Below are positions 651 to 44,435 of a DNA stretch of 44,435 bases, piece after piece (within the stretch, counting starts at the first letter, position 1; every line of letters begins with the position of its first letter). The notes under the pieces are model-generated. The model was not told where the DNA came from and did not search any database. It worked only from the letters and a program-made list of their open reading frames with translations. The position numbers and the translations under genes are program-made. The stretch spans positions 1-44,435 of the IMG/VR virus record IMGVR_UViG_3300018057_000017. One strand, written 5' to 3'. The DNA comes from a virus.

Positions 651-1769
651 ATGGCAGTTTATTACAATGAGATTGACCCATTTGCGGCGGCGTGGTTGCG
701 GGAACTGATTAAGGCGGGACATATCGCCAAAGGGGAAGTCGATGGCCGACCCATTAAGGAAGTCAAGAGCGACGAACTTCGCGGGTTCGCCCAATGCCAC
801 TTCTTCGCCGGGATCGGCGTGTGGAGTTACGCCCTTAGAGCGGCTGGATGGGCAGACGATACTCCCGTTTTTACAGGCAGTTGTCCCTGCCAGAGTTTCA
901 GTGCGAGCGGGAAGCGGGGAGGCTTCTCAGATCAGCGTCACTTATGGCCCGCATGGTTCAGGCTCATCCGAGAGCTACACCCTGACACAATCTTTGGCGA
1001 GCAGGTTGCGTCCAAAGACGGCCTCGCTTGGCTCGACGTTGTTTCGGCTGATTTGGAAGGAGCGGGTTACGCCATCGGGACGGCGGATTTGTGCGCTGCG
1101 GGCTTCGGGGCGCCGCACATCCGGCAGCGATTGTACTTCGTGGCCGAGTCCGCAGGCGTTCGATTCGAGTCCTTGCGAGAAATCAGGCGAAGCAATGAGC
1201 AGGGCAATGGCTGGGAGGGCGATTCCAGGGCGCAACGGCGGTCCACCAGCGAACCTTCGCGAGAAGGCGAAGCTGGCTGCATGGCCGACGCCGAACTGTA
1301 TGGACAGCCTACCAAGCGGGAATCTGGAGGAGCGCAAGACGAAAGGCGGCTGCATCAACCTGAAGGACGTGGCTCCGCTGGCGACCTGGGCGACACCGCA
1401 CAGCGAGGACTCGGAATGCGTGGGAGCACATCGGGGGAACGCGGACGGGCTGCACAGCCAGAGCAAACTAACGAATTGGACATCACCAACGTCGAGGGAT
1501 TGGAAGGGCGACAGTCGGAAGATGCAGGCCAAGGGACCGAAAGTGCCGGGCGGTGTAAGATTACCGGGCGAGGCTTTACTAACGGCTTCTGGGCCGACGC
1601 CGAATGGATCTGGTGCCGGGACCAAAAGTACCGGCCAGTTGAACCCGGCACATTCCCGCTGGTTACAGGGGCTACCAACCGTGTGGGACGATTGCGCGGC
1701 TATGGTAATTCCCTTACGGCGCCGGTCGCGGAAGAGTTTATAAGAGCATACATGGAGCTCAATCGATGA
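651..1769 (+). CDS. DNA (cytosine-5) methyltransferase, phage Dcm-like
   Basis: Probably methylates cytosine at C5 in phage DNA, most likely to evade host restriction. Visible motifs: motif I FFAGIG (residues 51-56, AdoMet binding), motif IV PCQ with catalytic Cys80, motif VI as GEQV (116-119) where ENV is usual, motif VIII IRQRLYFVA (157-165), and motif X around GNSLTAPVAEEFIRAY near the C terminus. Residues about 170-310 form a low-complexity region with repeated ADAxxxG/GDTxxxG units in the place of the target-recognition domain. A second long frame (742-1743) overlaps almost the whole gene. The stop overlaps the next gene's ATG (ATGA). Identity as a C5 methyltransferase is secure; the target sequence is unknown. 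Confidence 0.9.
   Translation: MAVYYNEIDPFAAAWLRELIKAGHIAKGEVDGRPIKEVKSDELRGFAQCHFFAGIGVWSYALRAAGWADDTPVFTGSCPCQSFSASGKRGGFSDQRHLWPAWFRLIRELHPDTIFGEQVASKDGLAWLDVVSADLEGAGYAIGTADLCAAGFGAPHIRQRLYFVAESAGVRFESLREIRRSNEQGNGWEGDSRAQRRSTSEPSREGEAGCMADAELYGQPTKRESGGAQDERRLHQPEGRGSAGDLGDTAQRGLGMRGSTSGERGRAAQPEQTNELDITNVEGLEGRQSEDAGQGTESAGRCKITGRGFTNGFWADAEWIWCRDQKYRPVEPGTFPLVTGATNRVGRLRGYGNSLTAPVAEEFIRAYMELNR
742..1743 (+). CDS. Overprinted reading frame inside the C5 methyltransferase gene
   Basis: An open frame of 333 codons, shifted relative to the methyltransferase. From about residue 75 it does not look like random shadow translation: it has a basic segment (TLFRLIWKERVTPSGR), then spaced units of the form W-x-S/T-P (WPSP, WPTP, WATP, WTSP), then a C-terminal LNPAHSRWLQGLPTVWDD. 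From memory, very similar proteins overlap Dcm-type genes in many phages, and an NP...LMG.P..W signature occurs at the C terminus of other phage Dcm enzymes. The WxTP units are the same DNA as the ADA/GDT units of the main frame. The start at 742 is uncertain because the first 70 residues look like shadow. Function unknown. Confidence 0.45.
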   Translation: MADPLRKSRATNFAGSPNATSSPGSACGVTPLERLDGQTILPFLQAVVPARVSVRAGSGEASQISVTYGPHGSGSSESYTLTQSLASRLRPKTASLGSTLFRLIWKERVTPSGRRICALRASGRRTSGSDCTSWPSPQAFDSSPCEKSGEAMSRAMAGRAIPGRNGGPPANLREKAKLAAWPTPNCMDSLPSGNLEERKTKGGCINLKDVAPLATWATPHSEDSECVGAHRGNADGLHSQSKLTNWTSPTSRDWKGDSRKMQAKGPKVPGGVRLPGEALLTASGPTPNGSGAGTKSTGQLNPAHSRWLQGLPTVWDDCAAMVIPLRRRSRKSL

Positions 1770-2386
1770 CGCGCCAACAAGAAGCGAGAAAATTAACCGA
1801 TGATGCGAAAAAACTCGTGCTTCAGATGGGCCGAACTCATCTCGCGCTGGGCAAGATATTCTCGCGGGTGAGGGATGGTAAGTTCTACAAGGAAGCCGGG
1901 TACGAGAGCTTCGCTGACTGGGCTCAGGCCGTGGCGGACATCGGTCGATCCTGGGCGTACACGCTGGCTGATCTTTACACTGAAGTCGAGGCAACGGTGC
2001 CGGCAGAAGCCATCCCGACGATCACGGTCGAGAATGCGAAGCTCCTGGTGAAGCTGCCCGAGAACAAGCGCTCTGACCCAACCACCTTGGCCGCCGCTCA
2101 GGAGATGACCGGCTCCGAGTTTCATGATTACGTGGACAAGGCGCATCCGGGCCTTCACATCGAGAAGCGCCACCATGAAACATATTGGCTGTCAGACGAT
2201 GACCACAAGATCGTGGAGATGGCGATCAAGCTGGCGATGGCGCGCTATGGGATGGCGACGAAATCCGAGGCGCTGGCGAAAATCTGCGAGGACTTTCTGA
2301 ACTCAGAAGGTGAAGAGATTCCCGGCAAGCAGGCCGACTCGCCTCTCATGCGGGACATAGTGGCAGCCACGGAAAGGGCGCAATGA
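1766..2386 (+). CDS. Hypothetical phage protein (206 aa)
   Basis: A 206-residue, helix-rich, charged protein. The segment after residue about 20 (LALGKIFSRVRDGKFYKEAGYESFADW) resembles the N-terminal region of phage and plasmid DNA-binding proteins in which a short 'effort per step, sized by coverage' helix pair precedes a DNA-binding helix, but I cannot assign a family. The start overlaps the methyltransferase stop (ATGA), and the stop overlaps the next ATG, so translation is probably coupled. There are no cysteine clusters or enzymatic motifs. A role in DNA binding or replication is a guess from context. Confidence 0.7.
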   Translation: MTRQQEARKLTDDAKKLVLQMGRTHLALGKIFSRVRDGKFYKEAGYESFADWAQAVADIGRSWAYTLADLYTEVEATVPAEAIPTITVENAKLLVKLPENKRSDPTTLAAAQEMTGSEFHDYVDKAHPGLHIEKRHHETYWLSDDDHKIVEMAIKLAMARYGMATKSEALAKICEDFLNSEGEEIPGKQADSPLMRDIVAATERAQ

Positions 2387-2706
2387 ATGATGGATATTGT
2401 GAAGCGCATTTAGTTAGAACGGGCGAGAAGATTCCTGTTTATAGGGTTAGCCTTTGCCGTGCGTGTTTTCAGGGCAAGGAATTAAAGACGGGTCAGACAG
2501 AGTTTACATCGGACGCTGGCAGCCAAGATCAAGAGCAACCAAACATTGCAACGTTAGAGCCGGTCGCAGATATACACGGAGACTCTAATGTCTGCTACGT
2601 GGTCACTGAGAAAAATGTAACTTGGCCTCCTAAAATAGAGACAGTTTTGAGATACCATAACTGGGCTACATATTTGGGGCTGCCACCTAAAGCGAAAAGG
2701 ATGTGA
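2383..2706 (+). CDS. Small Cys-containing hypothetical protein (107 aa)
   Basis: A 107-residue protein starting inside the stop of the upstream gene (ATGA). An N-terminal CEAH followed some 15 residues later by CRACF could bind one zinc ion (C-x2-H ... C-x2-C). The rest is polar with no motif I recognise. Its DNA reads more AT-rich than its neighbours by eye, which hints at separate acquisition. The stop is shared with the GTG start of the next gene (GTGA). Confidence 0.6.
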   Translation: MNDGYCEAHLVRTGEKIPVYRVSLCRACFQGKELKTGQTEFTSDAGSQDQEQPNIATLEPVADIHGDSNVCYVVTEKNVTWPPKIETVLRYHNWATYLGLPPKAKRM

Positions 2707-3053
2707 AACGATCAAGCATCCTCCGGAGCACTCCCATGAAGCGGGCGGCTTTCAGGCAAAGGCCGCGAAAGGCCAAGATCACGAAGTCGGGGCGCGTGAT
2801 TCTGTCGCGTGCTCAGTACGTGGTTCTCTGTCATGAGGTGTGGCTCCGGGATCATGGTGAGTGCCAAGTCAGGCATCAAGGTTGCTGGGGGAAGCTGCCG
2901 TATTTCTCGACGCGCTGGGTAGACCACATCATCAAGAGAAGTCAGGGCGGGAGCGACACACTTGAAAACACAAGACTGGGTTGCCCACCATGCCACGATT
3001 GGGCTGACAATCGAGGGGGCAAGCTGTCGGCAAAGCAGAAGGCTAGATCATGA
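2703..3053 (+). CDS. HNH endonuclease
   Basis: A 116-residue HNH-fold nuclease. It has a very basic N terminus (RQRPRKAKITKSGR), a central WVDHIIKRSQGG carrying the catalytic His pair region, LENTRLGCPPCHDWAD with the conserved Asn-to-His spacing, and paired cysteines for structural zinc. The length fits small phage HNH proteins, some of which stimulate terminase cutting. This one lies far from the terminase and beside a helicase and a methyltransferase, so a role in recombination or DNA processing is equally possible. GTG start overlapping the previous stop (GTGA); the stop overlaps the helicase ATG. Confidence 0.85.
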   Translation: MKRSSILRSTPMKRAAFRQRPRKAKITKSGRVILSRAQYVVLCHEVWLRDHGECQVRHQGCWGKLPYFSTRWVDHIIKRSQGGSDTLENTRLGCPPCHDWADNRGGKLSAKQKARS

Positions 3054-4438
3054 CCGAAAGTTATCAAGATTTCATAGAGCGAAAGTCTCAGCTTCAAGGG
3101 ATGGACGGCCTGAAAGCTAAATGGATTCCCAGCGTGATGTTCGACTTTCAGGCCTTCTTGACGGAGTGGGCTTTGTTGAGGGCTCGTGCCGCGATCTTTC
3201 TGGACTGCGGACTGGGAAAGACTTTGATGGAGTTCGTGTGGGCTCAGAATGTGGCAGAAGAAACCAACAAGCCGGTCTTGATTTCATGCCCCTTAGCCGT
3301 CAGCTACCAGATGCTCAAGGAAGCGAACAAGTTCGGAATAGAGCTGCATCGCTCGTCGGATGGGAAGGCGCATAAACCGATCACGGTCACGAACTATCAA
3401 CGACTTCATCTTTTCAATGAGGCTGAATTCTCGGGCATGGTGTGCGACGAGTCGGGCATTTTGAAAGGGTATGACGGCGCGACGCGGAAGATCATCACGA
3501 ACTTCATGCGCAAGATGAAGTACCGCTTGCTGGCGACGGCGACTCCGGCCCCAAACGACTACATCGAGCTCGGCAACTCGTCGGAAGCTCTCGGCTATCT
3601 TGGTTCACCGGAGATGCTGGTTCGGTTCTTCAAGAACGAGCAGAACAATTCTGATCAAAAGAGCAAATGGGTTGGCAAGGGCGGTGGGACTCCGAAATGG
3701 AGATTCAAGGGCCACGCGGAGGAGCATTTCTGGCGTTGGGTATGCTCTTGGGCACGGGCTGGACGAAAGCCATCTGATGTTGGTCAGTTCTCGGACGAGA
3801 AGTTCATTCTGCCCGGCCTGATTCAACGCGACTGGATTGTGGAGCCCAGGTCGTTGCCCGAAGGGAAACTATTTCAAGTTCCAGCTTTCAGCCTCTATGA
3901 GCAGCGCGAGGAGAGGCGCAGGACGATTCGCGAGCGGTGTGAGAAGGTTGCAGAATTGGTGTCGGAAAAGAGCCAGCGGCCGGCTGCCGTTTGGTGCCAT
4001 TTGAATCCCGAGGGGGATCTTCTGGAGAAGATGATTCCCGACTGCATCCAGGTCAAGGGTGCCGACAGCGACGATGAGAAGGAAGAGAAGTTGATGGCTT
4101 TCACCAACCTCCAAGCCGACTGCATCGTGAGCAAGAGCCAGATCGCCGGATGGGGCCTTAACTGGCAGCACTGTTGGCACCAGACCCACTTTCCAACCCA
4201 TTCGTTCGAGCAATGGTTTCAGTCCGTGCGCCGCTCTCTGCGCTTCGGTCAGACGCGAAAAGTCTTGCTCGATCTGATTTCAACCGAGGGCGAGAAGATC
4301 GTGATGGATAACCTGAAATCCAAAGCTGTCGCCGCTGACAGGATGTTTGATAGGATCGTGGCGCTGATGAGCAAAGAGCTGAAGATAAATCGCCGGGAGC
4401 AGTTTGATGAGGCCGAGATGATCCCGGCCTGGATGTAG
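3050..4438 (+). CDS. SNF2/DEAD-like superfamily 2 helicase
   Basis: A 462-residue SF2 ATPase. Motif I is DCGLGKT (residues 52-58), Walker B is a CDES variant (132-135) where DEAH or DEAD is usual, motif III is LLATATPAPND (about 160-169), and motif VI is in QSVRRSLRFGQTR. The motif VI spacing and the late QTR-type sequence are typical of phage SNF2-like helicases. It probably unwinds or remodels DNA in replication or recombination, in the cytoplasm. It sits between an HNH nuclease and a DNA methyltransferase, with ATGA coupling upstream, which resembles phage DNA-metabolism cassettes. Confidence 0.85.
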   Translation: MTESYQDFIERKSQLQGMDGLKAKWIPSVMFDFQAFLTEWALLRARAAIFLDCGLGKTLMEFVWAQNVAEETNKPVLISCPLAVSYQMLKEANKFGIELHRSSDGKAHKPITVTNYQRLHLFNEAEFSGMVCDESGILKGYDGATRKIITNFMRKMKYRLLATATPAPNDYIELGNSSEALGYLGSPEMLVRFFKNEQNNSDQKSKWVGKGGGTPKWRFKGHAEEHFWRWVCSWARAGRKPSDVGQFSDEKFILPGLIQRDWIVEPRSLPEGKLFQVPAFSLYEQREERRRTIRERCEKVAELVSEKSQRPAAVWCHLNPEGDLLEKMIPDCIQVKGADSDDEKEEKLMAFTNLQADCIVSKSQIAGWGLNWQHCWHQTHFPTHSFEQWFQSVRRSLRFGQTRKVLLDLISTEGEKIVMDNLKSKAVAADRMFDRIVALMSKELKINRREQFDEAEMIPAWM

Positions 4439-4449
4439 GAGAGGTGGTC

Positions 4450-5544
4450 ATGGCCGTTCAAGAGCAAAAAGTGACGGAACGATATGCGGTCTACCTCGGG
4501 GACGCCATCGAAGTTCTGAAGAACTTCCGAAAGGAATCCGTTCACCTTTCGATCTACTCCCCGCCGTTCGCCACTTCCGGGGGTGCCCTTTACAGGTATT
4601 CATCGAGCGAACGAGATATTTCAAACTCGTTGAGCTATGAGCAATTCTTCGATCATTATAGCTACCTAATGCATGAAGTGTGGAGGCTGACCATGCCGGG
4701 GCGAATCAGTGCGGTCCACTGCATGGACATCGCTTCTGGGAATACGGGCAACGATCATTTGACCGACTTCCCCGGTGACATTATCCGTCTCCACGCGGGC
4801 TGCCGCGAAAAAAACTGCAAGGCGAATCACTACGACCGCACGAGCGGAAAATGCGGACACGGCCTCTGGCATCACACCGGGCGCTACTGCGTCTGGAAAG
4901 AACCTCTCAAGGTGAGGAACAGGACGATGGCCAAGCATCTTTTCCACAAGGTTGCCGTGGAAGATTCGGCGCGTTGCAGCCCGGCTCTCGCCGATTATGT
5001 TCTGATTTTCAGAAAGAAGGGTGACAACGCGGTCCCGATTGCTCATCCACGCGGCCTGATCTATTATGCCGGAGAGCGCAAGCCCCCGGCAGACGTGCTT
5101 CATTACAAGGGCTGGAAGGGGGATCAGATTCAGAACAGATACTCGCATTGGATTTGGCGTCAATATGCGTCTGCCTTTTGGGATGACATCCGCGTTGATC
5201 ACGTTCTGAAGCACCGGCAGGCTAGGGACGAGCAGGACGAGGACCATGTTCATCCGCTCCAACTGGACGTCATCGACCGGATCGTTACGCTCTGGTCGAA
5301 TCCTGGAGAGACCGTGTTGAGCCCATGCGCGGGAGTAGGCAGCGAAGTCTACGGAGCTCTGTGTAATGATCGGAGAGCCATCGGCGTGGAACTCAAGCCG
5401 TCCTATTATCGGATGATGCTGAAAAACATCTCTGAGGCTAAAGTTCGGGAAGATGATGACGAGCCGACCTTCAGTTTTTACGAGAAATCAACAGAGGGGG
5501 AAGTTGAGGATGTCGAAGCTGAAGAGGCCGAAGCAACCGCCTAA
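4450..5544 (+). CDS. DNA methyltransferase, N4-cytosine/N6-adenine type
   Basis: A 364-residue beta-class-order DNA methyltransferase. The catalytic SPPF (residues 37-40) comes first, and the AdoMet-binding motif I (SPCAGVGSE, about 295-303) lies near the C terminus. SPPF suggests N4-cytosine, but N6-adenine cannot be excluded. An insertion with several Cys and His residues (CREKNCKANH ... CGHG ... HHTGRYC, about 113-142) looks like a zinc-binding module. The C-terminal tail is acidic. ATG 4450 is favoured over GTG 4444 because GGAGAGG lies just upstream. It probably modifies phage DNA against restriction. It overlaps the start of the next zinc-ribbon gene. Confidence 0.85.
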   Translation: MAVQEQKVTERYAVYLGDAIEVLKNFRKESVHLSIYSPPFATSGGALYRYSSSERDISNSLSYEQFFDHYSYLMHEVWRLTMPGRISAVHCMDIASGNTGNDHLTDFPGDIIRLHAGCREKNCKANHYDRTSGKCGHGLWHHTGRYCVWKEPLKVRNRTMAKHLFHKVAVEDSARCSPALADYVLIFRKKGDNAVPIAHPRGLIYYAGERKPPADVLHYKGWKGDQIQNRYSHWIWRQYASAFWDDIRVDHVLKHRQARDEQDEDHVHPLQLDVIDRIVTLWSNPGETVLSPCAGVGSEVYGALCNDRRAIGVELKPSYYRMMLKNISEAKVREDDDEPTFSFYEKSTEGEVEDVEAEEAEATA

Positions 5545-5713
5545 AGAGAAAAGCATGTGCGAATGCGGCGAGGGGTTTGATGTGATCTCGGAATCTCCAC
5601 GCTTGGCCATGATGCAGTGCATTAACAAAAAATGTAATAATTTTGGCAGAACGGCCATCGGTCCTAACCTGAGCTATCTGGAACTGTTGAACAGAATGGA
5701 GCGGACGACATGA
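5510..5713 (+). CDS. Small zinc-ribbon protein (67 aa)
   Basis: A 67-residue protein with a basic N terminus (SKLKRPKQPPKEK) and a zinc-ribbon-like core CECG ... CINKKCNNFG. The ATG at 5510 is chosen over the longer frame from 5453 because a GGGGAAG sequence lies a few bases upstream and the upstream part is a shadow of the methyltransferase tail. It overlaps the methyltransferase by about 35 bases and ends in an ATGA overlap with the next small gene. Function unknown; nucleic-acid binding is plausible. Confidence 0.65.
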   Translation: MSKLKRPKQPPKEKSMCECGEGFDVISESPRLAMMQCINKKCNNFGRTAIGPNLSYLELLNRMERTT

Positions 5714-5850
5714 AGATCACTCAAGAGCAGAAAGGGTTCAACGAGGACATGATTCACCGCAGCGATCTGCTGCACAAAGCTATGGATCCTCCTGGGGAAG
5801 CGGGAAAGGCCCCTAGGATGCCATTTGCCAGCGTCAGGAGCCAATCCTAG
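5710..5850 (+). CDS. Very small hypothetical protein (46 aa)
   Basis: A 46-codon reading frame starting within the stop of the preceding gene (ATGA) and ending in TAG at 5848-5850. The first half (MKITQEQKGFNEDMIHRSDL) looks coding; the second half is less clear. No motif is recognised. The coupled start is the main evidence that it is translated. Confidence 0.4.
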   Translation: MKITQEQKGFNEDMIHRSDLLHKAMDPPGEAGKAPRMPFASVRSQS

Positions 5851-8770: not shown

Positions 8771-8799
8771 CAATGACGAAACATGAAAAGGAGAATGAA

Positions 8800-9159
8800 A
8801 TGAAAAAGGTTTGGATGATGGTTTGCATTTTGGGGATCGTGGGCAACGTCACCTCCGGCCAACAAGGCCAGAAGGTTCCGCAAACATCTCAAGGGCCTCA
8901 GATGGTTCAGTTGAGTCCTTCAGGAAAGCTGGCATTCAGGACCGTTCAGCAGGAGCTTGCACAGCTTCAGGCAGACATCAACGAACTCGTGTCGGCAGAG
9001 GTAAAAGTACAGGGCTTGACGGGAGAAGGGTGGCAGCTTAATTTTCAGACAGGTATGTTGGTGCGGGTACCTCCCGCAACTCCACCACCAGCCAATCCTC
9101 CTGCGGCCCAGCCGGAAAAGAGCAAGGCGGCCATCGGGCAGGAAAAGCAGAAGCGGTAA
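8800..9159 (+). CDS. Secreted or periplasmic small protein with signal peptide
   Basis: A 119-residue protein with a clear N-terminal signal peptide (MKKVWMMVCILGIVGNVTSG), a helical polar middle (FRTVQQELAQLQADINELVSAE), and a proline-rich, lysine-rich C terminus. ATG 8800 is chosen because AAGGAG lies six bases upstream; ATGs at 8773 and 8783 are alternatives in the frame or nearby. No lipobox cysteine is visible at the expected position. It might be a spanin-like or superinfection-exclusion protein, but nothing specific supports either. It is the only predicted secreted gene product in the early arm. Confidence 0.5.
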   Translation: MKKVWMMVCILGIVGNVTSGQQGQKVPQTSQGPQMVQLSPSGKLAFRTVQQELAQLQADINELVSAEVKVQGLTGEGWQLNFQTGMLVRVPPATPPPANPPAAQPEKSKAAIGQEKQKR

Positions 9160-16852: not shown

Positions 16853-17749
16853 ATGAAACGCCGCAATTTCTTCGCATCAATGTTGGGTTCTATCTCGTGT
16901 ATCCCAGGATTTTCGTCCATCGCATCGGTTGTGCCGGGCAGTTCGCAGATAAGCCGAAAGGAGTTTCACGATCAATTCTTCAAAAACTCAAACGCCATAG
17001 CACTGAGTTTTGGCTCGGCTGACAATCGGCTGTATTCGAACTCCCGTGTTGAGCACAAGGATGAGAGCATGAAATTCACCAAGCTACGTTGTCGCCTAGC
17101 ATTTGCCATTTGGAATCCTGCCCTGACTCACGTAGAGTTGGAGGGCATTCACGTCGATGACGGGTCTTCGCCATTCATTAGTTTGGAGATAGGGCATTCT
17201 GCGGCAGTCTACAAGCAGGATGGAGACTATGACTGGCAGAATCTGGATAACTTCGTTGATTTTAAAAGTGAGCACTGCCCTCTCAGGGATGCGAATTGGA
17301 GAATGTTCACACAAATTATTAAGGACTTTCAATCAAGGGGTTCTGCTGAAACTGGCAACCCTCTACAAATTCAGGCCCTCAACTGGATTCGATCAATCGA
17401 AGTCGGAAGTCTTAAGTTGGATCGAACCAACTTCTATTCTTGGCAGCATGTGGTGAACGGGAAACCTGGATTGGATTACGGCGTTCAGGCCTTCTTCATT
17501 GGCCAGTCCTTGCACTACAAAGTTGACATCGAATACCGAGGGATTTCAGAAAAGCCAAAAATCTGTTGCTTTATGAGCGAACCTGATACTTCCAAAATGG
17601 ATTTCATGGGCGGCTACGAGGAACTTTCTCCGAAAAGCAGGAGCACCGTAGAAGACTGGATTTCCGGCCACGAGAAATGGTATTTAGAAAGGCGTGAAGA
17701 TGCACGTGAGTCTATGAATGATAACACTGCATCAGATGTGTTAAGCTAA
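16853..17749 (+). CDS. Hypothetical protein with Tat-like leader (298 aa)
   Basis: N terminus MKRRNFFASMLGSISC is a twin-arginine motif (RRxFF) followed by a hydrophobic stretch and a small-residue cleavage region, so the protein is probably exported through the Tat system. The mature part (SFGSADNRLYSNSRVEHKD... HVELEGIHVDDG) is mixed alpha/beta with no motif I recognise. GAGGAGAGG precedes the ATG. Exported genes inside a head module are typical of morons, i.e. host-conversion cargo. Its DNA is AT-richer by eye than the flanking genes. Confidence 0.6.
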   Translation: MKRRNFFASMLGSISCIPGFSSIASVVPGSSQISRKEFHDQFFKNSNAIALSFGSADNRLYSNSRVEHKDESMKFTKLRCRLAFAIWNPALTHVELEGIHVDDGSSPFISLEIGHSAAVYKQDGDYDWQNLDNFVDFKSEHCPLRDANWRMFTQIIKDFQSRGSAETGNPLQIQALNWIRSIEVGSLKLDRTNFYSWQHVVNGKPGLDYGVQAFFIGQSLHYKVDIEYRGISEKPKICCFMSEPDTSKMDFMGGYEELSPKSRSTVEDWISGHEKWYLERREDARESMNDNTASDVLS

Positions 17750-19111: not shown

Positions 19112-19226
19112 CTGAGACAATATACCACACAAGTCAAATACAAATTCTAAAGATTGTGAATTGCGGCGTCGCCTTTGCGCTTGCATCGTCCAAAAGCGGT
19201 GTATGGTAGATACGTTGGAGGAACGA

Positions 19227-19880
19227 ATGGACCCATCACCTACCCAGGTTCTCTGTCAGGTTCCCGGCGAATCAGCCACTCCTCAATACCTTCCGTTGTC
19301 AGAGGTGACGCGCGCGGTCGTGAAGACCGCGGCGAACCCGTACGTCGCCACCATCGCGGACGAGACGATCTTGTGTTGCGGGCTCTCCAATCAGGTCGTC
19401 ACTCTGCCCACGGGCCCCGGCGTTCCCGTCGGAAAGACGTTCACGATCAAGGTGGTCGGTGCCGGAGTTCCCGTCAACGTCTGGGCTGCTCCTGACCCGG
19501 CGGGCGACAACGTCCCGATAGACGAATGGCAGGTCGCTTGGCCGAATGGAGGCAATTTTCAGCTTTGGAACGCTCCGTCCACCACTCAGAACGGAAGCGC
19601 GGTCACTCTGCGATGGGCAGGCCGCTACGTTTACGACGGCGTGATGAGCTCCACCGCCGCTCAGACGCATCTGAAATCCGCGAGCGCCGCGTTCACCGCC
19701 GACGACGTGGGAAGCGTGGTGAGAGTTGCGGGAGCGGGCGCGGGCGGCATCGATCTCATGGCCACCATATCGAGCCTAGTGAGCGCAACTGAGGTCGTCT
19801 TGGGCGGTTCATGCGCCACCACGGTGGCTGCGGCCCGTGTCAGCGTCGGAGCGCAGTACTGGGTGGTCGGCAAGGTCTAG
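19227..19880 (+). CDS. Structural protein with phage beta-domain (217 aa)
   Basis: A 217-residue, glycine- and valine-rich beta protein without catalytic motifs. Residues about 134-209 (from VYDGVMSSTAAQTHL to RVSVG) match, almost position by position, a segment of the tail sheath (26959-27182), including AAF...DVG/DIG, GAGAGGIDL/GAGAAGVDL and TVAAA. That segment is a beta domain often found in phage virion proteins near adhesion modules. Head-decoration or fibre-accessory roles are possible. ATG 19227 is chosen for the upstream GGAGGA. Confidence 0.6.
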   Translation: MDPSPTQVLCQVPGESATPQYLPLSEVTRAVVKTAANPYVATIADETILCCGLSNQVVTLPTGPGVPVGKTFTIKVVGAGVPVNVWAAPDPAGDNVPIDEWQVAWPNGGNFQLWNAPSTTQNGSAVTLRWAGRYVYDGVMSSTAAQTHLKSASAAFTADDVGSVVRVAGAGAGGIDLMATISSLVSATEVVLGGSCATTVAAARVSVGAQYWVVGKV

Positions 19881-36163: not shown

Positions 36164-36811
36164 ATGCCTGCTTTGCCATATCCGCAGACTTACGGGATCG
36201 GGGGCTACGGCTCTGGCCTTTATGGGAACCAGCCCATCGAGACGTTGCCCATTGGTTATTACCTGAGCCTGCTGACGTCGGAATACGCTCTGCCGAACTC
36301 TCCGAAGTGGAACGCCTTTCTTTACTTGCTTTTGAAAAAGTTCGACGACGTGTCACAATGCCTCGTGCAGATGGACACGGCGTTCGACATCGACTTCGCG
36401 GTGGGAGTGCAGCTCGACGCCGTGGGAGTGATCGTGGGCCAGAGCCGCACCGTGGGATTCCAGCCGAGCGGCGGAGTGAGTCCGGTTCTCGATGACGCAA
36501 CTTATCGAATCCTGCTCAAAGCAAGAGTAGCTCAGAACCAGTGGGACGGAACCATCGGCGGGATGCAGGCAATCTGGCAGAGCCTTTTCCCTTCGGGCCG
36601 CATCATCATCGCCGACCAGCAGAACATGACGGCGGACATCCTGGTGACCGGATCGTTCACGTCGATCATCGAGGACTTGATTGTGAACGGATACATCGTG
36701 CCCAGGCCCGAGGCGGTTTTGTATAACTTCATCTTCCCACACTTCCCGATGTTCGGCGCCGATCTGGACAATGCTTTCATTGCCGGGGCCGATCTCGGAT
36801 ATACGACGTAA
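36164..36811 (+). CDS. DUF2612-like baseplate/fibre connector (215 aa)
   Basis: A 215-residue protein. The N terminus (YGIGGYGSGLYGNQP) is glycine/tyrosine-rich; the middle VGVQLDAVGVIVGQSRTVGF is the strongest match to the DUF2612 tail group (gpI-like), which anchors tail fibres at the baseplate edge. GTIGGMQAIWQSLFPSGRIIIADQQNMTADILV supports the same assignment. Starts immediately after the J-like gene. Confidence 0.75.
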   Translation: MPALPYPQTYGIGGYGSGLYGNQPIETLPIGYYLSLLTSEYALPNSPKWNAFLYLLLKKFDDVSQCLVQMDTAFDIDFAVGVQLDAVGVIVGQSRTVGFQPSGGVSPVLDDATYRILLKARVAQNQWDGTIGGMQAIWQSLFPSGRIIIADQQNMTADILVTGSFTSIIEDLIVNGYIVPRPEAVLYNFIFPHFPMFGADLDNAFIAGADLGYTT

Positions 36812-36820
36812 GGAGCAGAC

Positions 36821-37441
36821 ATGGGCAGCTCGAACTTCTTGCAACACAATCCGACGCAGACCAACCAGGAATCTGACAGCTCATATACTGCGGAGTCTCT
36901 TCGATCTGGAGGAATCCCAGTAGACGCGATCCTTCCTTCGCCCTGGCTGAACAAAATCTGGTATCAATGCACGACCGCTGTCGCCGCATTGATGCAGATG
37001 ATGGCCTCAAAGGGTTATGTTTTGTCGGACGCGAACCTGAACGTGCTGAGCGGAGTGCTTGCCAACATTTTGACCTGGGCGGATTTTCCGCTCGGCCTGC
37101 CCAAGATCACCGCAAAAGTCGATCTTGTAGGATACAGCGGATCAGTCATAGCTTACCTGATCACACCTGCTGCGGCTGGATTCTACAGAGTGTCCGCTGA
37201 AGCATTCATCTATTCACCTACGGTCACTTCCACGTTGGCCGTTGAGATCAATTGGACTCAGAACGGACAGGGACTAAGCGGCACGCTGATACCCTCGACG
37301 ACGGTGGTCACATCCATCGCGGCTGCGCAAGGTGAGTGTGTCTTGTATGGCGATGCCGGAATCCCTATTCAGTACGTGGTGAGTTGGTCTGGACCAGGAT
37401 TAGATCATTATGACGTGCATATACGATTGGAAGCATTATAG
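36821..37441 (+). CDS. Fibre-assembly or short tail-fibre protein (206 aa)
   Basis: A 206-residue protein. NFLQHNPTQTNQESDSSYTAESLRSGGIPVDAILPSPWLNKIWYQCTTAVAALMQMMASKGY is, from memory, a common N-terminal module of phage tail-fibre proteins. The second half is beta-rich (AYLITPAAAGFYRVSAEAFIYS). It comes directly before the large fibre genes. It has no signal peptide, unlike the next three genes. Confidence 0.65.
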   Translation: MGSSNFLQHNPTQTNQESDSSYTAESLRSGGIPVDAILPSPWLNKIWYQCTTAVAALMQMMASKGYVLSDANLNVLSGVLANILTWADFPLGLPKITAKVDLVGYSGSVIAYLITPAAAGFYRVSAEAFIYSPTVTSTLAVEINWTQNGQGLSGTLIPSTTVVTSIAAAQGECVLYGDAGIPIQYVVSWSGPGLDHYDVHIRLEAL

Positions 37442-37461
37442 AATCTGTGCGTGGTGAGAAC

Positions 37462-40400
37462 ATGAATCTGTCGAGAAAAACCTCTTGGCTTTCACTGTGG
37501 TGCATGCTGTTGTGCGTTTCTGCTTTTGCTCAAGGGCCTGTCCTGACGACCGTCGCTTACACTTACGCTCGACCGGACGGAAGTTTACCGTCAGGCACGA
37601 TCAGCATAATGAATCCTCCCTTCACGAGCCCGGACGGGTTCCCAATCGCGGCAGCGAACAAGACGGCGCAGTTCTTCACGGGAGCGATTTCAGTTCAACT
37701 GGTCCCCACTCAGGGTGGAAGTCCTGACAGGCAGCTCTACACCGTGCTGATAACTCCGCAAGGTAATCCGATGGTGCAGGAATTTTGGTCGGTTCCGCAG
37801 TCTGCAGGAGCCGTGAATCACGCAGCCGTGATCTCATACCAGACTCCCCTGCCGAATCCCTTGATAGGCATACCGGAGGGCGGTACAGGAGCGAGCACGG
37901 CTGCTCAGGCGCGTGCTAACCTCGGCATCACCAGCGGAAGCGTCACGGGATTCAGCGCAGGCAATCTACTTCCTCTTTTCAACTCCTCCGTCGCCACCCC
38001 GTCCAGTACGCCAGCCCTGAACTTCTCTCTTCTGACGACCGAGCCAGACTCGATTTTCGGCAATTTTTCAGGAGCGACCGCCCGTCCTGCTTATGGAGGG
38101 GGATTGATTTCCTGCGGCGATTCCACTCACGCATTGGGATATTTGAACCATGTTTTTGAATGTCAATCTCTGTCGTCTGGCACTCCGCTTCCAGCGAACA
38201 CCGATCCTTTAGCCGCCGATAGTTTCGGTGCTGCCATCGCCTCGAAAACCATCGTCAACGTGATGAACTACGGTGCGAAGTGCGATGCCACGACTGACGA
38301 CAGCCCAGCGTTCACGGCGGCGGTGGCTGCCATGCCTGGAGGAACGCCTTATCCAGCACTCAACACGGTTGGAGGTGGCATACTTCTCATTCCGGCCAGT
38401 CCCACACCCTGCAACCTGGTCTCTGCGAGGCTGGCAATCACCAAGGCCAACGTCAAGGTATCGGGGTACGGTGCTTCACTGCTTTGCACGGTTGCCGATG
38501 ACTGCGTGACGCTGGGCGATCTCACCAACGTCAATTCAGGGATCAACAACATAACCATCGAAGGTCTCGCCATCGAGCCGGGCGTGGGCTCGGTTGGGCA
38601 TTCTGCGATCCGCGACAACGCGCAGGGCACCCGCATCGTGGATGTCAGCGACGTTTATAACTACACCGGATGGCCAGCGCACTACGGCTTCAACCACTTC
38701 ATCGAGAACGATGACGACTTCTTTCAGCAAGTCGAGCATCTTTACATAAGTGGCGGCACGCTGCGCTGCGACCCGACCTTCTGCGGCTCCTACATTTGGG
38801 GGCCGGGGCCGTTTGCTACAAATGCCGGGATCACCTATCTGTCGGGTGGATTCAATATTTCGCCAGAATGCTCTGGCAATGGGATTGACTGGAACAACAA
38901 TAACACTCTCAGTATCAGGGATGGGGTGATTGAGGGATATAACCAATTTGCTATTCGGGCTTGGGCTAGCAATAACCCTAGCGCCCTTAGTGTGAATCAC
39001 GTCTACATGGAACGTGGAAGTTGCACCAACCCCTTCGGTAATGTGGGTAGTGCTGGGGTCATAACTTACAGCCCAACCACTTGGGTTGGCAGTCAACTCG
39101 GCGGCGGGAGCGTGCCGGTGTTCACGCATTCCGGCTCGGGCTCAGGCACCAACTATCAGTATTACATCGTGGGCAAGAATGCTGGTGGCGCTGTGACCGT
39201 TCCGATGAGCGCCGGATACATCACCAATGCTCTGGTGGGCGCGTCTGACTCGATCACAACCAACTGGATACATTATGGAGCAACCTCCTACACTATGCTC
39301 CGGCAGGAGGGATACGGAGTCATAACCGCAGCTCCATACGGCACGGGAAATTGGGCCGTAGCTGTCGATCTAGCGGCATCGAGCGCGTGCAACGCTGCGG
39401 GCCTTTGCACCTTCGTTGATACGGTGGCGAGTCCGTCGTCTTACACGGTTAGCACCAGTCCGACCTATTCGCCCACCATCACATTTTGGGGCGGTGCGAT
39501 TGTTCTTGCTGGTAGCGGCGCAACCTACTCGGGTAGTCCTCTTTCATTGGGTGGGATTTTCGTAAGTCCCAACGCTCCCAACGCCGGTCAAATTAACCTG
39601 ACCGCAGGACCAACCACAGCTTACTATCAAGACCCTGAACCTTTCAGTCCTGTTCGCATTAATGTCCCCCCAGGTTCAGGAGTCCTGTATCAGCCTCAAA
39701 ACGCAATCCTGATGGACCAGGGTTATGGGGCGGTTTTAGGGAGTAAAAAAGGTCTAATTAATTTGGGGCAGGCGTCCAGAGCCTATACTGTAGACACGAT
39801 TACACTCGGCGACAGTAATCCCAACAAAACGTCCGCATCTATCAGTGGGCGACCTGCCAGTGATGTTGGAGATGCCGCTGTATGCGTGGATCACGCCGGT
39901 ACTTGTTTTAGAGACCCGATAGCCCTTACTGAGTACATTAATAGCCTCGGGAATAATGTAAGTTGGTTGGAGCGGCTGACCGCAAGTCTCAAGATATTCA
40001 ATGTGCCCTTGACGGCTTTTTCGGTGGCTCAGCTTGTTGCGCCGTTTTGCGGTTATCTTGCCGATATTCCAACTGGCGGGATGCTCCTCCCTGGCCACCA
40101 GTACTGCTATATTGCTACGACTCTGGATTACTTAGGCGAAAGTTATCATGACCGACCGGAAGGTTGCATCACGACAGCTAATGACGGGAACAGTACGCAT
40201 CAAGTCCAAGCGTACTTCAAATCAAATGAAGGGGCCACTAGGGGGTACAATGTCTACGGTCGCGAGACGGGCACCGAGCAGTTGATGACCCCATCGCATA
40301 TTGCCAACACTTGGCCAGACTATTATTTCATCTTTACCGATACTGGTTCAGTGACCCCCAGCGGGGCGATGCCGACGAAGGATACGACGGGGCAGATTTC

Positions 40401-40779
40401 GGCTACGCAGTTTAATGGTCGCGTTGCCCATGGAATCAGTTTCACGATGGGTGACCCCGTCAACAATACGGCGCTGACAACCTCGGAAGTCCAGTACGTG
40501 ACTGTGCCCTTTGCCTGCACGATTCAGGCTTACAACCTCGCCATTGATGCAGGCACGATCACGGTTAAATTCTGGAAGGTAGCAAGCGGAACTGCGATCC
40601 CCACGGCCTCGAACTCGATCAACACGGCTGGGGTTTCGATTGCAGGTGGAACTGCCATCCATAGCGGCACACTGACCGATTTCACCACCACCGATGTTGT
40701 GACTAATGACATCATGGCAATGGCGGTAACGGCTGTTGCGACCGCCAAATTCGTGAATGGTGTTCTTCAATGCCAGTGA
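37462..40779 (+). CDS. Large tail spike/fibre with signal peptide and pectate-lyase-like repeats
   Basis: A protein of 1105 residues. It begins with a Sec signal peptide (MNLSRKTSWLSLWCMLLCVSAFAQ), unexpected for a virion protein. IPEGGTGASTAAQARANLGI (about residue 140) is a common fibre-module motif. From about residue 265 comes NVMNYGAKCDATTDDSPAFTAAVAAM, typical of pectate-lyase-type beta-helix spikes, with later GINNITIEGLAIEPGVGS-style beta-helix turns. The extended C-terminal part contains glycine/serine-rich segments. It probably binds or degrades a surface polysaccharide. ATG 37462 is favoured over the GTG at 37447. Confidence 0.7.
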   Translation: MNLSRKTSWLSLWCMLLCVSAFAQGPVLTTVAYTYARPDGSLPSGTISIMNPPFTSPDGFPIAAANKTAQFFTGAISVQLVPTQGGSPDRQLYTVLITPQGNPMVQEFWSVPQSAGAVNHAAVISYQTPLPNPLIGIPEGGTGASTAAQARANLGITSGSVTGFSAGNLLPLFNSSVATPSSTPALNFSLLTTEPDSIFGNFSGATARPAYGGGLISCGDSTHALGYLNHVFECQSLSSGTPLPANTDPLAADSFGAAIASKTIVNVMNYGAKCDATTDDSPAFTAAVAAMPGGTPYPALNTVGGGILLIPASPTPCNLVSARLAITKANVKVSGYGASLLCTVADDCVTLGDLTNVNSGINNITIEGLAIEPGVGSVGHSAIRDNAQGTRIVDVSDVYNYTGWPAHYGFNHFIENDDDFFQQVEHLYISGGTLRCDPTFCGSYIWGPGPFATNAGITYLSGGFNISPECSGNGIDWNNNNTLSIRDGVIEGYNQFAIRAWASNNPSALSVNHVYMERGSCTNPFGNVGSAGVITYSPTTWVGSQLGGGSVPVFTHSGSGSGTNYQYYIVGKNAGGAVTVPMSAGYITNALVGASDSITTNWIHYGATSYTMLRQEGYGVITAAPYGTGNWAVAVDLAASSACNAAGLCTFVDTVASPSSYTVSTSPTYSPTITFWGGAIVLAGSGATYSGSPLSLGGIFVSPNAPNAGQINLTAGPTTAYYQDPEPFSPVRINVPPGSGVLYQPQNAILMDQGYGAVLGSKKGLINLGQASRAYTVDTITLGDSNPNKTSASISGRPASDVGDAAVCVDHAGTCFRDPIALTEYINSLGNNVSWLERLTASLKIFNVPLTAFSVAQLVAPFCGYLADIPTGGMLLPGHQYCYIATTLDYLGESYHDRPEGCITTANDGNSTHQVQAYFKSNEGATRGYNVYGRETGTEQLMTPSHIANTWPDYYFIFTDTGSVTPSGAMPTKDTTGQISATQFNGRVAHGISFTMGDPVNNTALTTSEVQYVTVPFACTIQAYNLAIDAGTITVKFWKVASGTAIPTASNSINTAGVSIAGGTAIHSGTLTDFTTTDVVTNDIMAMAVTAVATAKFVNGVLQCQ

Positions 40780-41819
40780 ACGGCTTACTCAGAAAATTCG
40801 CTTTCGGGTTATGCGTAGTGCTGTGCTGCCTACCTGCCCACGCGGGCTGGACACTCAAAAATTCCACAATCACGGCGGGAAGCACAGCGAATCCTTTCGT
40901 CATGGGCGCCTTTGCTCATCCCCTTACGCCGGGGAGTATCATCATCGTGAGTTTCGGGGCCAATGGGACGAGTATCCCAGTCCCAACCGATGACGCTGGG
41001 AACACTTACTATGACTATGGCGGAGGTCCTGTTCAGGATCATTTGACGCTCTATGATTACAACTTTTATGCTTTGAACACTCACAGCACAGCCTTAAATA
41101 AAATCTACATCTCCAACAGTGGCGGGTCCTTCATTTACGGTAGCGTCGGTTCAGAGTGGACGGGTGGCGTGCCATCCAGCCCAGTTGATGTTTATGCCAT
41201 TACTGCATTGGGGATCGCGGGCAGCGGCACTGATAATGCTTCGACGGCATCCGCTGACACCACTCAAAAGGGCGATTTGATTTACGGCCACGTTATTTGT
41301 TGGGGCGGTCCTGCCCATTCGGCTGGAACAGGTTTTACCTACATCGGCAACAATAACTATCCAGGAGAGTACTTGATTCAATCCTCACTGGGAACAGTGG
41401 CCGCAACTTGGACAGTGGGTTCTGGAGACTACTACGGAGCGATCATGGTAGCGTTTAAGCAGGCTCCCATTGTCAGCCTTTCGGCTTCTACTTTGGGCTT
41501 CGGAGCTTGGCCAGTCGGCGTCACAAGTTCTTCCCACACGGAAACGATTACGAATACCGGCATCGTGGATTTGGTCATTTCGACAGTTACGATCACGGGC
41601 ACGGATTTTGGAGACTTCTCGAATGTAGCCGATACGTGCAGCGGCGAGACCGTCACGTCCGGCAATACCTGCGCGGTTAGCGTGACGTTCACGCCATCTG
41701 CGATCGGAAGCCGCAGTGCTTCGCTGAATTTTGCCGACAATGCCAGCGACACTCCACAGGCAGTGGTTTTGGCGGGAACGGGTGGAGTGGCCAACAGTGG
41801 CCACAGCGGGATCATGTAG
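40770..41819 (+). CDS. Secreted choice-of-anchor-D (ASH/HYDIN-like) protein
   Basis: A 349-residue protein with a Sec signal peptide (MPVNGLLRKFAFGLCVVLCCLPAHA). The N-terminal part (about 25-235) is beta-rich and unassigned. Residues about 235-340 are a choice-of-anchor-D domain: STLGFGAWPVGVTSSSHTETITNTG, TGTDFGDFS, SGNTCAVSVTFTPSAIGSRSASL and TGTGGV. This domain is very frequent in Acidobacteriota secreted proteins. It overlaps the end of the spike gene by ten bases and lies between two fibre-type genes. It may be an adhesion accessory or an exported cargo gene. Confidence 0.7.
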   Translation: MPVNGLLRKFAFGLCVVLCCLPAHAGWTLKNSTITAGSTANPFVMGAFAHPLTPGSIIIVSFGANGTSIPVPTDDAGNTYYDYGGGPVQDHLTLYDYNFYALNTHSTALNKIYISNSGGSFIYGSVGSEWTGGVPSSPVDVYAITALGIAGSGTDNASTASADTTQKGDLIYGHVICWGGPAHSAGTGFTYIGNNNYPGEYLIQSSLGTVAATWTVGSGDYYGAIMVAFKQAPIVSLSASTLGFGAWPVGVTSSSHTETITNTGIVDLVISTVTITGTDFGDFSNVADTCSGETVTSGNTCAVSVTFTPSAIGSRSASLNFADNASDTPQAVVLAGTGGVANSGHSGIM

Positions 41820-41842
41820 CATGATATGATGGAGGTGTTATG

Positions 41843-44435
41843 ATGCGTTTCAAAAAACTTGGCTGTCTCTTGATCCTTGGTTTATTCCTTGCAATTCGTG
41901 CTCCCATCCCAGGATTGTCACAGGGAAACTCGTGCGGCATCTCCGGCGCGTGCAAGGGAAACATCACGACCAACGGTGACGCTGTGATCCTTCCCGTCCC
42001 CCAGGACACCGCGACCATCGTTGTGACCGTGGCTGGCACATGGACAGGAACCCTTCAGTTTCAGCAAAGCTCGGACAGCGCCTCGACCTGGCACTCCTCG
42101 AGCGGGAATCCACAGCCTTCAGGAACAGGGGCAACGTTCACCACGGCCAACGGGCAGTGGCGCTTCGTCGGTTCTGGACTCACAAACTTTCAGGTCATAG
42201 CCTCCGCAACGATCAGCGGAACGGCTAACGTAACCATAACTCCATCTAAGGGATCCGCGGCATCTGGAGGATCCGGATGCTTCTCCGGGGGCGATCTGAC
42301 AGGATGCTCGCCAAACCCTACCGTGGCCAACGCGAACGGGGTGCCCCTTCCGACGTTGGCCGGGCAGTCTGGATATTTGCTGGACACCAACGGGACTCTC
42401 TCGCTGAACGCTGGCATCGCGGTAGCTCATAATCTTCTTTCAGCCACGCACAGCGACACCACTCCGGCCGCCGTCGAACGCGGCGCCATTATCACCGGTC
42501 AGGGTGTCAATCCAACTTGGGCAAAACTTCTGGCAGGTGTTCAATATCAAAGTCTCGTGATGGGCGTGGCTGAACCCGGATGGGGCGCGCTTGATCTTAG
42601 TCAAGCGGCGGCGGTCACGAACAACCTCGGTACGGGGCATGGAGGAACCGGCGCCGCCACTGCTGCTGCGGCCTTAGTCAATCTCTTGCCGGCTGGAACG
42701 AGAGTTGGTGACATGCTCTATTGCACAACCTATGCGGCTGGTGCTTGCTCGGCATGGACGCTGCTCGCGGGGAATACCACGAGCACCGCTTGGCTGCAAG
42801 AAACCGCTGGCGGCGTCGCGTCCTGGACCGTACCTCCGGGGGCTGCGCCTGCTGGCTCTGGCAGCGAGGTGCAATACCGTTCCAGTGCCTCGGCTTTCGG
42901 GGCCGTCACGGGATCGAGCTTCAGCGCAGGGGCGCTGACACTTCCCAAAATCATTGGGACCGCGTCTACCACGGCAGCGGCCGCATTCAACATCCCAAGC
43001 GGCGTGGCTCCAACAACCGGACTAGGCACTGGAGACCTCTGGAATCTTTCCGGCATCCTGCAATTCTACGATGGCACTAACACGCAGTCGGTGGCTACGA
43101 TTCAAACTCCAAGCGTGAACGGCAATTATGCCTCGTTCAGTGGCACCGGTGGGCTGCTGCAAAACAGCGGATATGCTGTGGGCAATGCCGTAAACTTCAA
43201 CGGGGCTGGCGTTTCCATCAACATCCCCGTACTGGCAACGAATGGTTCAGGCCAGCTTGTGGCATCCACGGGGCACCAAGTATCAGTTCCTCTGGCTTGC
43301 GTGGCCGGTGGGGGCTCGCACACGGCCTACACCTGTACGACCGCGCCGACTTTTGCCCCTGTTGCCGGAGATGAAATTCTATTCAAGGCAGATGTCGCCA
43401 ATACGGGGGCCTCAACGCTGGTTGTCAATGCTCAGGCGGGAACGCCTGCGATTGACAAGCAAGGGGGAGCTACAGCGCTTTCGCCTAATGACCTGTTGGC
43501 TGGCCAGTATGTATTCATGATTTTTGACGGCACGAACTGGACGATGCAAGGACAATCAGGAAACGGTATCGGCGGGGCTCTCCAGGTTTCAGCGAATACG
43601 CTGAATAATACGAACACCACCTCCCAAGTGTTGATTACAGGCGGCAATGATGCTTCTTCAGCCGGGACGGTTGGGCCGCTCAATCTGCGTGGGGGAAACC
43701 AGACCGGCACGGGTGGAGCAAGTTCGCAGGGTGGCAGCGCTTGGTTACATGGCGGCAATAACGCTGGAACCAATGCAGGTTCACAGGCGGGGAACGTCGA
43801 AATCATAGGCGGTGAGTCTACGGCAGGAGGAAAGCAGGGTCTCCAGGTGAGTGGCGCATGGTTCGCCAAGGGTGTAGGAACTTCGACACCGTGGAACCTG
43901 CAATGCCTGACTACGGCGATGACCGTAAATGACTGCGGGGCATCGCCGGGCAATTGGCTGGGAATTGCCGCTCTGGTACACACAAGCTCGGTGGAAGTAA
44001 TCTTCCCGACTGCCGAAACGCTCGTCAACGCGAGTGCTGCGGTGACGCTGGGGGACACAGTCTGCGCAGGATCGACAGCAGGTCAAGTTACGGATTCCGG
44101 CGGGACATCTACCTGCACCGCTACGCAAGGCTCTCAGCTCGGCGTCGTCATTGCGACGAGCGGTACGTGGACCCTGCCTGACGGGACTACATTTACACCT
44201 ACCACGACCTTGCCACTCATTGCAGTACAGACCGCAGTGCGGGCATTGAACATGACAGGCGCTACCGACACGATTCTAATGGGTAACGATGCGGGCGTCG
44301 GGTCCCTTCCAGCCTATAAGACTGGTCCTTCAGGTGGGACTACCGGATGTGCGGGTGCTACCGATACGCCGACCTACAACACGTCAACCCATGCTTGGGG
44401 ATGCCACCAGATCACGCCAGGTACGGGCACTGTCA
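41843..44435 (+). CDS. Large fibre-type protein with signal peptide, truncated by the window end
   Basis: An open frame of more than 860 codons that runs to the end of the window without a stop. GGAGGT lies six bases before ATG 41843 (41840 is an alternative). The N terminus MRFKKLGCLLILGLFLAIRA is a Sec signal peptide. The body is glycine/threonine/serine-rich with GHGGTGAATAAAALVNL (a fibre-module motif also seen in the 37462 gene) and repeated beta segments such as LNLRGGNQTGTGGASSQGGS. It looks like a tail fibre. It is not similar to the preceding domain protein. The C terminus lies outside the window. Confidence 0.65.
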   Translation, partial: MRFKKLGCLLILGLFLAIRAPIPGLSQGNSCGISGACKGNITTNGDAVILPVPQDTATIVVTVAGTWTGTLQFQQSSDSASTWHSSSGNPQPSGTGATFTTANGQWRFVGSGLTNFQVIASATISGTANVTITPSKGSAASGGSGCFSGGDLTGCSPNPTVANANGVPLPTLAGQSGYLLDTNGTLSLNAGIAVAHNLLSATHSDTTPAAVERGAIITGQGVNPTWAKLLAGVQYQSLVMGVAEPGWGALDLSQAAAVTNNLGTGHGGTGAATAAAALVNLLPAGTRVGDMLYCTTYAAGACSAWTLLAGNTTSTAWLQETAGGVASWTVPPGAAPAGSGSEVQYRSSASAFGAVTGSSFSAGALTLPKIIGTASTTAAAAFNIPSGVAPTTGLGTGDLWNLSGILQFYDGTNTQSVATIQTPSVNGNYASFSGTGGLLQNSGYAVGNAVNFNGAGVSINIPVLATNGSGQLVASTGHQVSVPLACVAGGGSHTAYTCTTAPTFAPVAGDEILFKADVANTGASTLVVNAQAGTPAIDKQGGATALSPNDLLAGQYVFMIFDGTNWTMQGQSGNGIGGALQVSANTLNNTNTTSQVLITGGNDASSAGTVGPLNLRGGNQTGTGGASSQGGSAWLHGGNNAGTNAGSQAGNVEIIGGESTAGGKQGLQVSGAWFAKGVGTSTPWNLQCLTTAMTVNDCGASPGNWLGIAALVHTSSVEVIFPTAETLVNASAAVTLGDTVCAGSTAGQVTDSGGTSTCTATQGSQLGVVIATSGTWTLPDGTTFTPTTTLPLIAVQTAVRALNMTGATDTILMGNDAGVGSLPAYKTGPSGGTTGCAGATDTPTYNTSTHAWGCHQITPGTGTV

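Follow-up and report, generated by a model that had tools for sequence, protein, structure and literature searches.

The three large genes at the right end of the window, a 44,435-base IMG/VR record of a soil phage, and their counterparts in related phages very probably encode exported, disulfide-bonded proteins. Several of these predicted exports are, by sequence, of a clear phage-fibre type, as judged from a GGTGA motif, a module termed B, and a conserved N-terminus joined to a swapped C-terminus. Textbook tail fibres are built in the cytoplasm. In our best explanation, to which we assign a probability of about 0.45 over its whole course from export through docking, the fibre-type proteins would instead mature in the periplasm and be fitted to the tail at lysis.

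Locus layout and signal peptides

The window is a partial genome of a phage nearly the same as IMGVR_UViG_3300018013_000001 (L002, also L187; 70,027 bases), which it matches at 16,972 of the 16,974 bases compared. Both ends of L002 carry the same 123 bases, and this exact terminal overlap indicates a complete genome of ~69.9 kb that is circular or circularly permuted. The rest of the gene set is that of a contractile-tailed phage (terminase, portal, major head protein, sheath, baseplate hub, baseplate J, and DUF2612). A 239-aa protein encoded between the portal and head protease genes (window 19161-19880) matches a PHROG annotated with pectin lyase activity (E 2e-8). The features of the locus under study are listed in Table 1.

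Table 1. Positions of genes, signal peptides, and motifs at the right end of the window
Feature	Position	Strand	Basis or remark
DUF2612 baseplate protein	36164..36811	+	PF11041 E=4.5e-30; phrog_587; marker for finding relatives
Adaptor A, short tail fibre (cytosolic), lacking a signal peptide	36821..37441	+	N-terminus MGSSNFLQHNPTQTNQE; relatives share position and motif
Shine-Dalgarno-like GGTGA, 4 bases ahead of gene 1 ATG	37453..37457	+	
Gene 1 ORF, 1105 aa	37462-40779	+	
Gene 1 signal peptide, MNLSRKTSWLSLWCMLLCVSAFA/Q (continues QGPV)	37462..37530	+	Identical amino acids in L004
Gene 1 mature part, 1082 aa, 19 Cys, plus stop; fibre/spike-like	37531..40779	+	50% identical to L005 signal-peptide spike
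Gene 1 conserved N-terminal region, residues 24-255	37531..38226	+	L004 comparison
Gene 1 fibre motif GGTGASTAAQARANLG (GGTGA motif)	37879..37926	+	Sequence; like motif in BgManors32 spike
Gene 1 start of pectate-lyase-like segment, NVMNYGAKCD region	38257..38286	+	Common to L005 and L006
Gene 2 ORF, 349 aa	40770-41819	+	
Gene 2 signal peptide, MPVNGLLRKFAFGLCVVLCCLPAHA/G (continues GW)	40770..40844	+	10-base overlap of its start with gene 1
Gene 2 mature part, C-terminal HYDIN/ASH Ig-like domain	40845..41819	+	PF22544 E=8.9e-8, above cutoff
Shine-Dalgarno-like GGAGGTG ahead of gene 3	41829..41835	+	
Gene 3 ORF	41840/41843 to window end	+	864+ aa in window; full length 1493 aa in L002
Gene 3 signal peptide, MRFKKLGCLLILGLFLAIRAPIPGLSQGN, approximate cleavage site	41840..41914	+	
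Gene 3 mature part, cut at window end, closely spaced cysteine pairs	41915..44435	+	

The complete locus in L002 comprises six signal-peptide genes in tandem, followed by genes that, judged from their sequence, resemble lysis genes, one of them lysozyme-like. The initial annotation had described a tandem set of three such genes; the row of genes was confirmed, while the number was corrected to six. The L002 genes encode proteins of 1105 (gene 1), 349 (gene 2), 1493 (gene 3), 944 (gene 4), ~133 (gene 5), and 912 (gene 6) residues. The N-terminus of gene 4 is MRKLILILAFLAFPVLGWATA, gene 5, which spans the contig ends, has the signal peptide MKRLLLLVASVFTVSVVAAA/Q, and gene 6 starts with MRKILAFVVSLFFTLIPMISRA/QTTVTPNIGLQVP, with module B directly after the signal peptide. 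Codon usage of genes 1-3 is like that of adaptor A and the tape measure gene and unlike that of the highly biased structural genes, a feature that is not diagnostic.

Signal peptides were assigned by a rule-based score requiring a positive n-region, an uncharged hydrophobic core, and small residues at -3 and -1, which 3.6% of shuffled N-termini passed. The c-region rule was relaxed once to admit one arginine, and gene 3 was flagged only after that change. As the initial annotation had proposed, the ORFs of genes 1-3 are all present and all score positive for a Sec-type signal peptide with the classical n-h-c pattern, whereas none of the preceding tail and baseplate genes was flagged. Two of the 33 other plus-strand genes were flagged, neither of them a tail or baseplate gene: an early-region gene for a 128-aa protein with the signal peptide MKKVWMMVCILGIVGNVTS (window 8773-9159), and a gene among the head genes for a 298-aa protein with the twin-arginine-like start MKRRNFFASMLGSISC (window 16853-17749). 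Neither protein had a PHROG match.

Shine-Dalgarno-like sites (GGTGA, GGTG, and GGAGGTG) lie ahead of the signal-peptide starts of genes 1-3. When signal-peptide starts were compared with internal starts in 64 relatives, the ribosome-binding site of the former was better in 47, equal in 11, and worse in 6. Better downstream starts, the finding that the initial annotation had named as contrary to its proposal, were thus confined to a small minority, and internal start codons were ruled out as the source of an artefact.

Conservation in related phages

Using the DUF2612 protein as a query, we collected ~100 related viral contigs (47 and 161 given as matches), in which baseplate J is followed by DUF2612, adaptor A, often an adaptor B, and then at least one large gene. 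In the comparison of related phages that the initial annotation had suggested, signal peptides were found at a score of 12 on 60 of the 80 large downstream ORFs vs 8 of the 362 upstream genes, and on 2 of 30 in more distant DUF2612 phages, several of them from Firmicutes; these are descriptive counts from which redundancy was only roughly removed. On inspection, the large downstream ORFs lacking a signal peptide were mostly misassigned adaptors and wrong-frame ORFs.

The contigs also yielded several separate observations. Additional signal-peptide genes lie upstream of the DUF2612 gene at L072:1570, L086:5796, and L110:5508, and a second signal-peptide locus may exist. In L005, a different phage, several glycosyltransferase-like genes precede the signal-peptide spike (positions 909-5760), perhaps for host surface modification. 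Very long signal-peptide fibre ORFs of >2162 and >2354 aa, which run on past the end of the sequence, occur at L023:14107-20592 and L030:5095-12156, respectively. Related genes of ~250 aa with the motif GNDxxGxCAExG, possibly cysteine peptidases, follow the fibre genes at L021:3969-4733 and L027:15567-16325.

Many of the signal-peptide proteins carry, after the cleavage site, an INP module with the consensus Q-x-x-INPxTQINWPxxTGxGxP...C...YGxPYxNT..N..YxC...GW. A scan with a DNA pattern for [ND]Px[TSV]Q[IV][NR]WP, of which the signal peptide was not a part, gave 34 confirmed loci. A signal peptide stood in front of the module in all 32 viral ORFs assessed, with the n-h-c pattern and an A/Q-like cleavage site kept throughout; the letters of the signal peptide varied, while the module was conserved. 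The module also occurs in phages of other apparent tail types, as assigned from gene order only: L162 has a long tape measure, L163 and L159 have a different baseplate set, and L172 and L180 are without such genes. This distribution indicates that the INP module is not a tail-specific anchor. Modelled structurally (mean pLDDT 73), it forms a small unit of three strands, whose similarity to fibre and collagen-trimerisation domains is weak and not significant.

Of 21 aligned INP modules, 20 have both cysteines and the remaining one has neither. Mature signal-peptide proteins contain 1.94% cysteine, compared with 0.72% in upstream structural proteins (a 2.7-fold difference) and 0.82% in adaptors of the same phages. 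The number of cysteines is even in 29 of 35 non-redundant complete signal-peptide proteins vs 104 of 170 controls (one-sided P 0.01), gene 1 of the window being an exception. The cysteine content, together with signal peptides whose physical character is preserved although their letters differ, supports export to an oxidising compartment, and we consider it highly probable that secretion, cleavage, and disulfide formation all take place. If the hydrophobic N-termini were instead membrane-like segments or mis-called starts, the proteins would be cytosolic. The atypical c-region of gene 3 and the home-made rule behind the score would fit such a reading, but the ribosome-binding sites, the signal-peptide pattern retained in front of every INP module assessed, and the cysteine enrichment make it very improbable.

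A prophage-based search for the host found a DUF2612 relative in only 1 of 396 Acidobacteriota genomes, on a Terriglobia MAG contig that could itself be binned phage. The HYDIN/ASH domain of gene 2 occurs in 21 of 149 Acidobacteriota genomes. The MAG contig and this Ig domain point to a host that may be Acidobacteriota-like. Glutamine at position +1 was found in 40 of 64 phage signal peptides vs 6 of 32 from the MAG, which gives no clear support for a host-like signal peptide dialect. The INP module was found in none of the Acidobacteriota genomes, in a search that was run without a positive control.

Fibre-type features and known counterparts

In the window and its relatives alike, the fibre-type genes come directly after the genes for baseplate J, DUF2612, and adaptor A. 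When gene 1 is compared with the L004 protein, residues 1-255 are conserved (~94% identity over residues 24-255, with 38 synonymous vs 16 non-synonymous codon changes) and are followed by an abrupt switch to an unrelated C-terminus. A conserved N-terminus with a swapped C-terminus, as read from this alignment, is the usual pattern of receptor-binding proteins. Several members of the signal-peptide set match PHROG tail-fibre families, as does the C-terminal part of the adaptor A counterpart in L018; genes 1 and 3 of the window gave no PHROG tail-fibre match, gene 1 having the GGTGA-type motif only. Other members of the set contain glycoside-hydrolase, Ig-like, collagen, or glycine-rich domains. 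The structure model of mature gene 1 (pLDDT 29.5) was too low in confidence to show a fold, and PDB sequence searches with genes 1 and 3 and the spikes of phages BgManors32 and phi1422 gave no match to solved chains.

Module B (TPNIGLQxPxxNQxNWQVPxNYxxNxLDxxxGG) occurs in two forms. In the first, it is a separate gene without a signal peptide, whose 3' end often holds the Shine-Dalgarno site and ATG of the signal-peptide gene (overlap of 17-32 bases); in the second, it is fused directly behind the signal peptide, as in gene 6. The occurrence of B as either a separate gene or a fusion suggests that it and the exported fibre act together. A frameshift fusion of B with the signal-peptide gene, raised by the overlap, would be a less simple explanation than translational coupling.

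The initial annotation had offered two origins for the genes, fibres exported by the phage or host-derived adhesins taken up as cargo. The export part of the first is supported by the conservation of signal peptides with changing letters and by the cysteine content. The second may apply to gene 2, whose only recognisable domain is the HYDIN/ASH Ig domain common in Acidobacteriota; it does not fit gene 1, with its fibre motif and receptor-binding-type swap, or gene 6, with module B.

Signal peptides on fibre-type proteins were also read directly in the cultured phages BgManors32, Bcep1 (identical in BcepNY3), and phi1422, each of which has another fibre gene as well. The records of Bcep1 and Bcep781 carry the depositors' note 'possible tail fiber; possible signal peptide domain', our source for Bcep781; except for this database note, the trait is unremarked in cultured phages. 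The Bcep1, Bcep781, and BcepNY3 tail fibre (Bcep1-51 and relatives; PHROG 32740) resembles the window proteins in being of tail-fibre type with a signal peptide, MNMKKILSRVFACAIVLAAFSQFALG/QFAPG, and in the presence of a second annotated fibre, gp33 in Bcep1. The Bcep fibre differs in that there is one gene only, which sits at another place in the tail cluster, and in its few cysteines; no sequence relation to the window proteins was found. The BgManors32 locus is closer in layout (baseplate J, DUF2612, a fibre free of a signal peptide, and then the signal-peptide spike UEW68612.1 with the GGTGA motif), although it has one signal-peptide gene, and the C-terminus of the spike is related to the Bcep1 fibre rather than to the window. 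Bdellovibrio phage phi1422 encodes the signal-peptide protein gp68 directly after a putative tail-fibre gene, but with different domains and without the GGTGA motif. In 11 other named DUF2612 phages, the fibre gene behind DUF2612 has no signal peptide.

In filamentous phages, the minor coat protein pIII, which serves in adsorption, also has a signal peptide and disulfides, but it is assembled at the membrane and belongs to an unrelated virus type and fold. The nearest functional analogue appears to be the MAT superfamily of Bdellovibrio bacteriovorus, exported phage-fibre-like trimers that serve as surface adhesins (PMC10769870); we do not claim membership. MAT proteins likewise combine a signal peptide, a conserved N-terminal domain, a phage-fibre-like body, and diverse tips. 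The domain that follows the signal peptide in MAT proteins is beta-rich and ~130 aa long. Unlike the phage proteins, they are encoded by a bacterium, act on the predator surface, and in many cases carry an S74 chaperone, whereas none of 35 signal-peptide proteins had an S74 chaperone/protease domain. Signal peptides are known from secreted endolysins (PMC6116005). A search of the open literature found no paper treating signal peptides on tailed-phage fibres.

Proposed assembly at lysis and its alternatives

We propose that synthesis of the fibre or spike proteins and their companions would be late, that the Sec machinery of the host would export them and signal peptidase cleave them, and that they would fold in the periplasm, where disulfide bonds form. 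Neither a lipobox nor a sortase motif nor any other anchor turned up; lipobox and known outer-membrane anchors were checked in 64 proteins. As no outer-membrane anchor was recognised, the simplest course would be storage in the periplasm until lysis and exit together with the virions, and release at lysis is, in our judgement, probable. The fibre-type members would then attach to the tail, either by way of module B and adaptor A or as substitutes for them, and serve as additional receptor-binding or glycan-cleaving spikes, with any excess staying free. Docking to virions is put forward tentatively, at somewhat less than an even chance. Against it stand the cytosolic fibre already present, adaptor A, and the spread of the INP module over phages with different tails. 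In addition, six signal-peptide genes in one genome, among them the host-like gene 2 and gene 5 with its 133 aa, resemble a set of secreted proteins more than a single component of the virion.

The same facts would suit proteins that are exported but never enter the virion. Released as free factors that bind or degrade glycans, they could remove exopolysaccharide from the host, cover receptors on infected cells or on debris, or serve as decoys. Mixed domains across six tandem genes are in line with such roles, as are the GH30-like and chitobiase C-terminal domains in one relative, the match to a GH54 arabinofuranosidase domain in another member, and the sharing of the INP module by phages with different tails. 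Free action is almost as likely as docking, but the receptor-binding-type mosaic, the fusion of module B behind the signal peptide, and the translational coupling to B suggest a virion partnership. On account of module B and the mosaic pattern, docking is narrowly preferred over free action.

Before the host lyses, the fibres could also be displayed on its surface, where they would work as adhesins or block receptors (superinfection exclusion), in the manner of phage-encoded outer-membrane proteins. In favour of such a role one may cite the signal peptides and the precedent of MAT-like fibres, which a bacterium exports and displays on its surface (PMC10769870). Such display is improbable, given the anchor search above, a Pfam scan of 35 signal-peptide proteins that found no autotransporter or trimeric-adhesin anchor, and the adjoining lysis genes, which suggest late expression.

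Assembly at lysis may extend further, although we hold this to be rather doubtful: phages of several tail types, probably sharing one host group, may put together some of the apparatus for receptor binding outside the cytoplasm and fit it to their tails only at lysis. The proposal is testable in the cultured phages Bcep1, BcepNY3, BgManors32, and phi1422, and it is relevant to phage annotation and to the search for disulfide-stabilised depolymerases. If true, conserved fibre export in multiple lineages would imply that tailed-phage morphogenesis has a step in the periplasm, or else that each burst releases a class of phage-secreted proteins active on glycans. The former would amount to a second site of tailed-phage assembly, with Sec export, disulfide formation, and fitting at lysis. 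Fibre export would also offer a possible path from phage fibres to adhesins on bacterial surfaces, of which the MAT proteins are an example.
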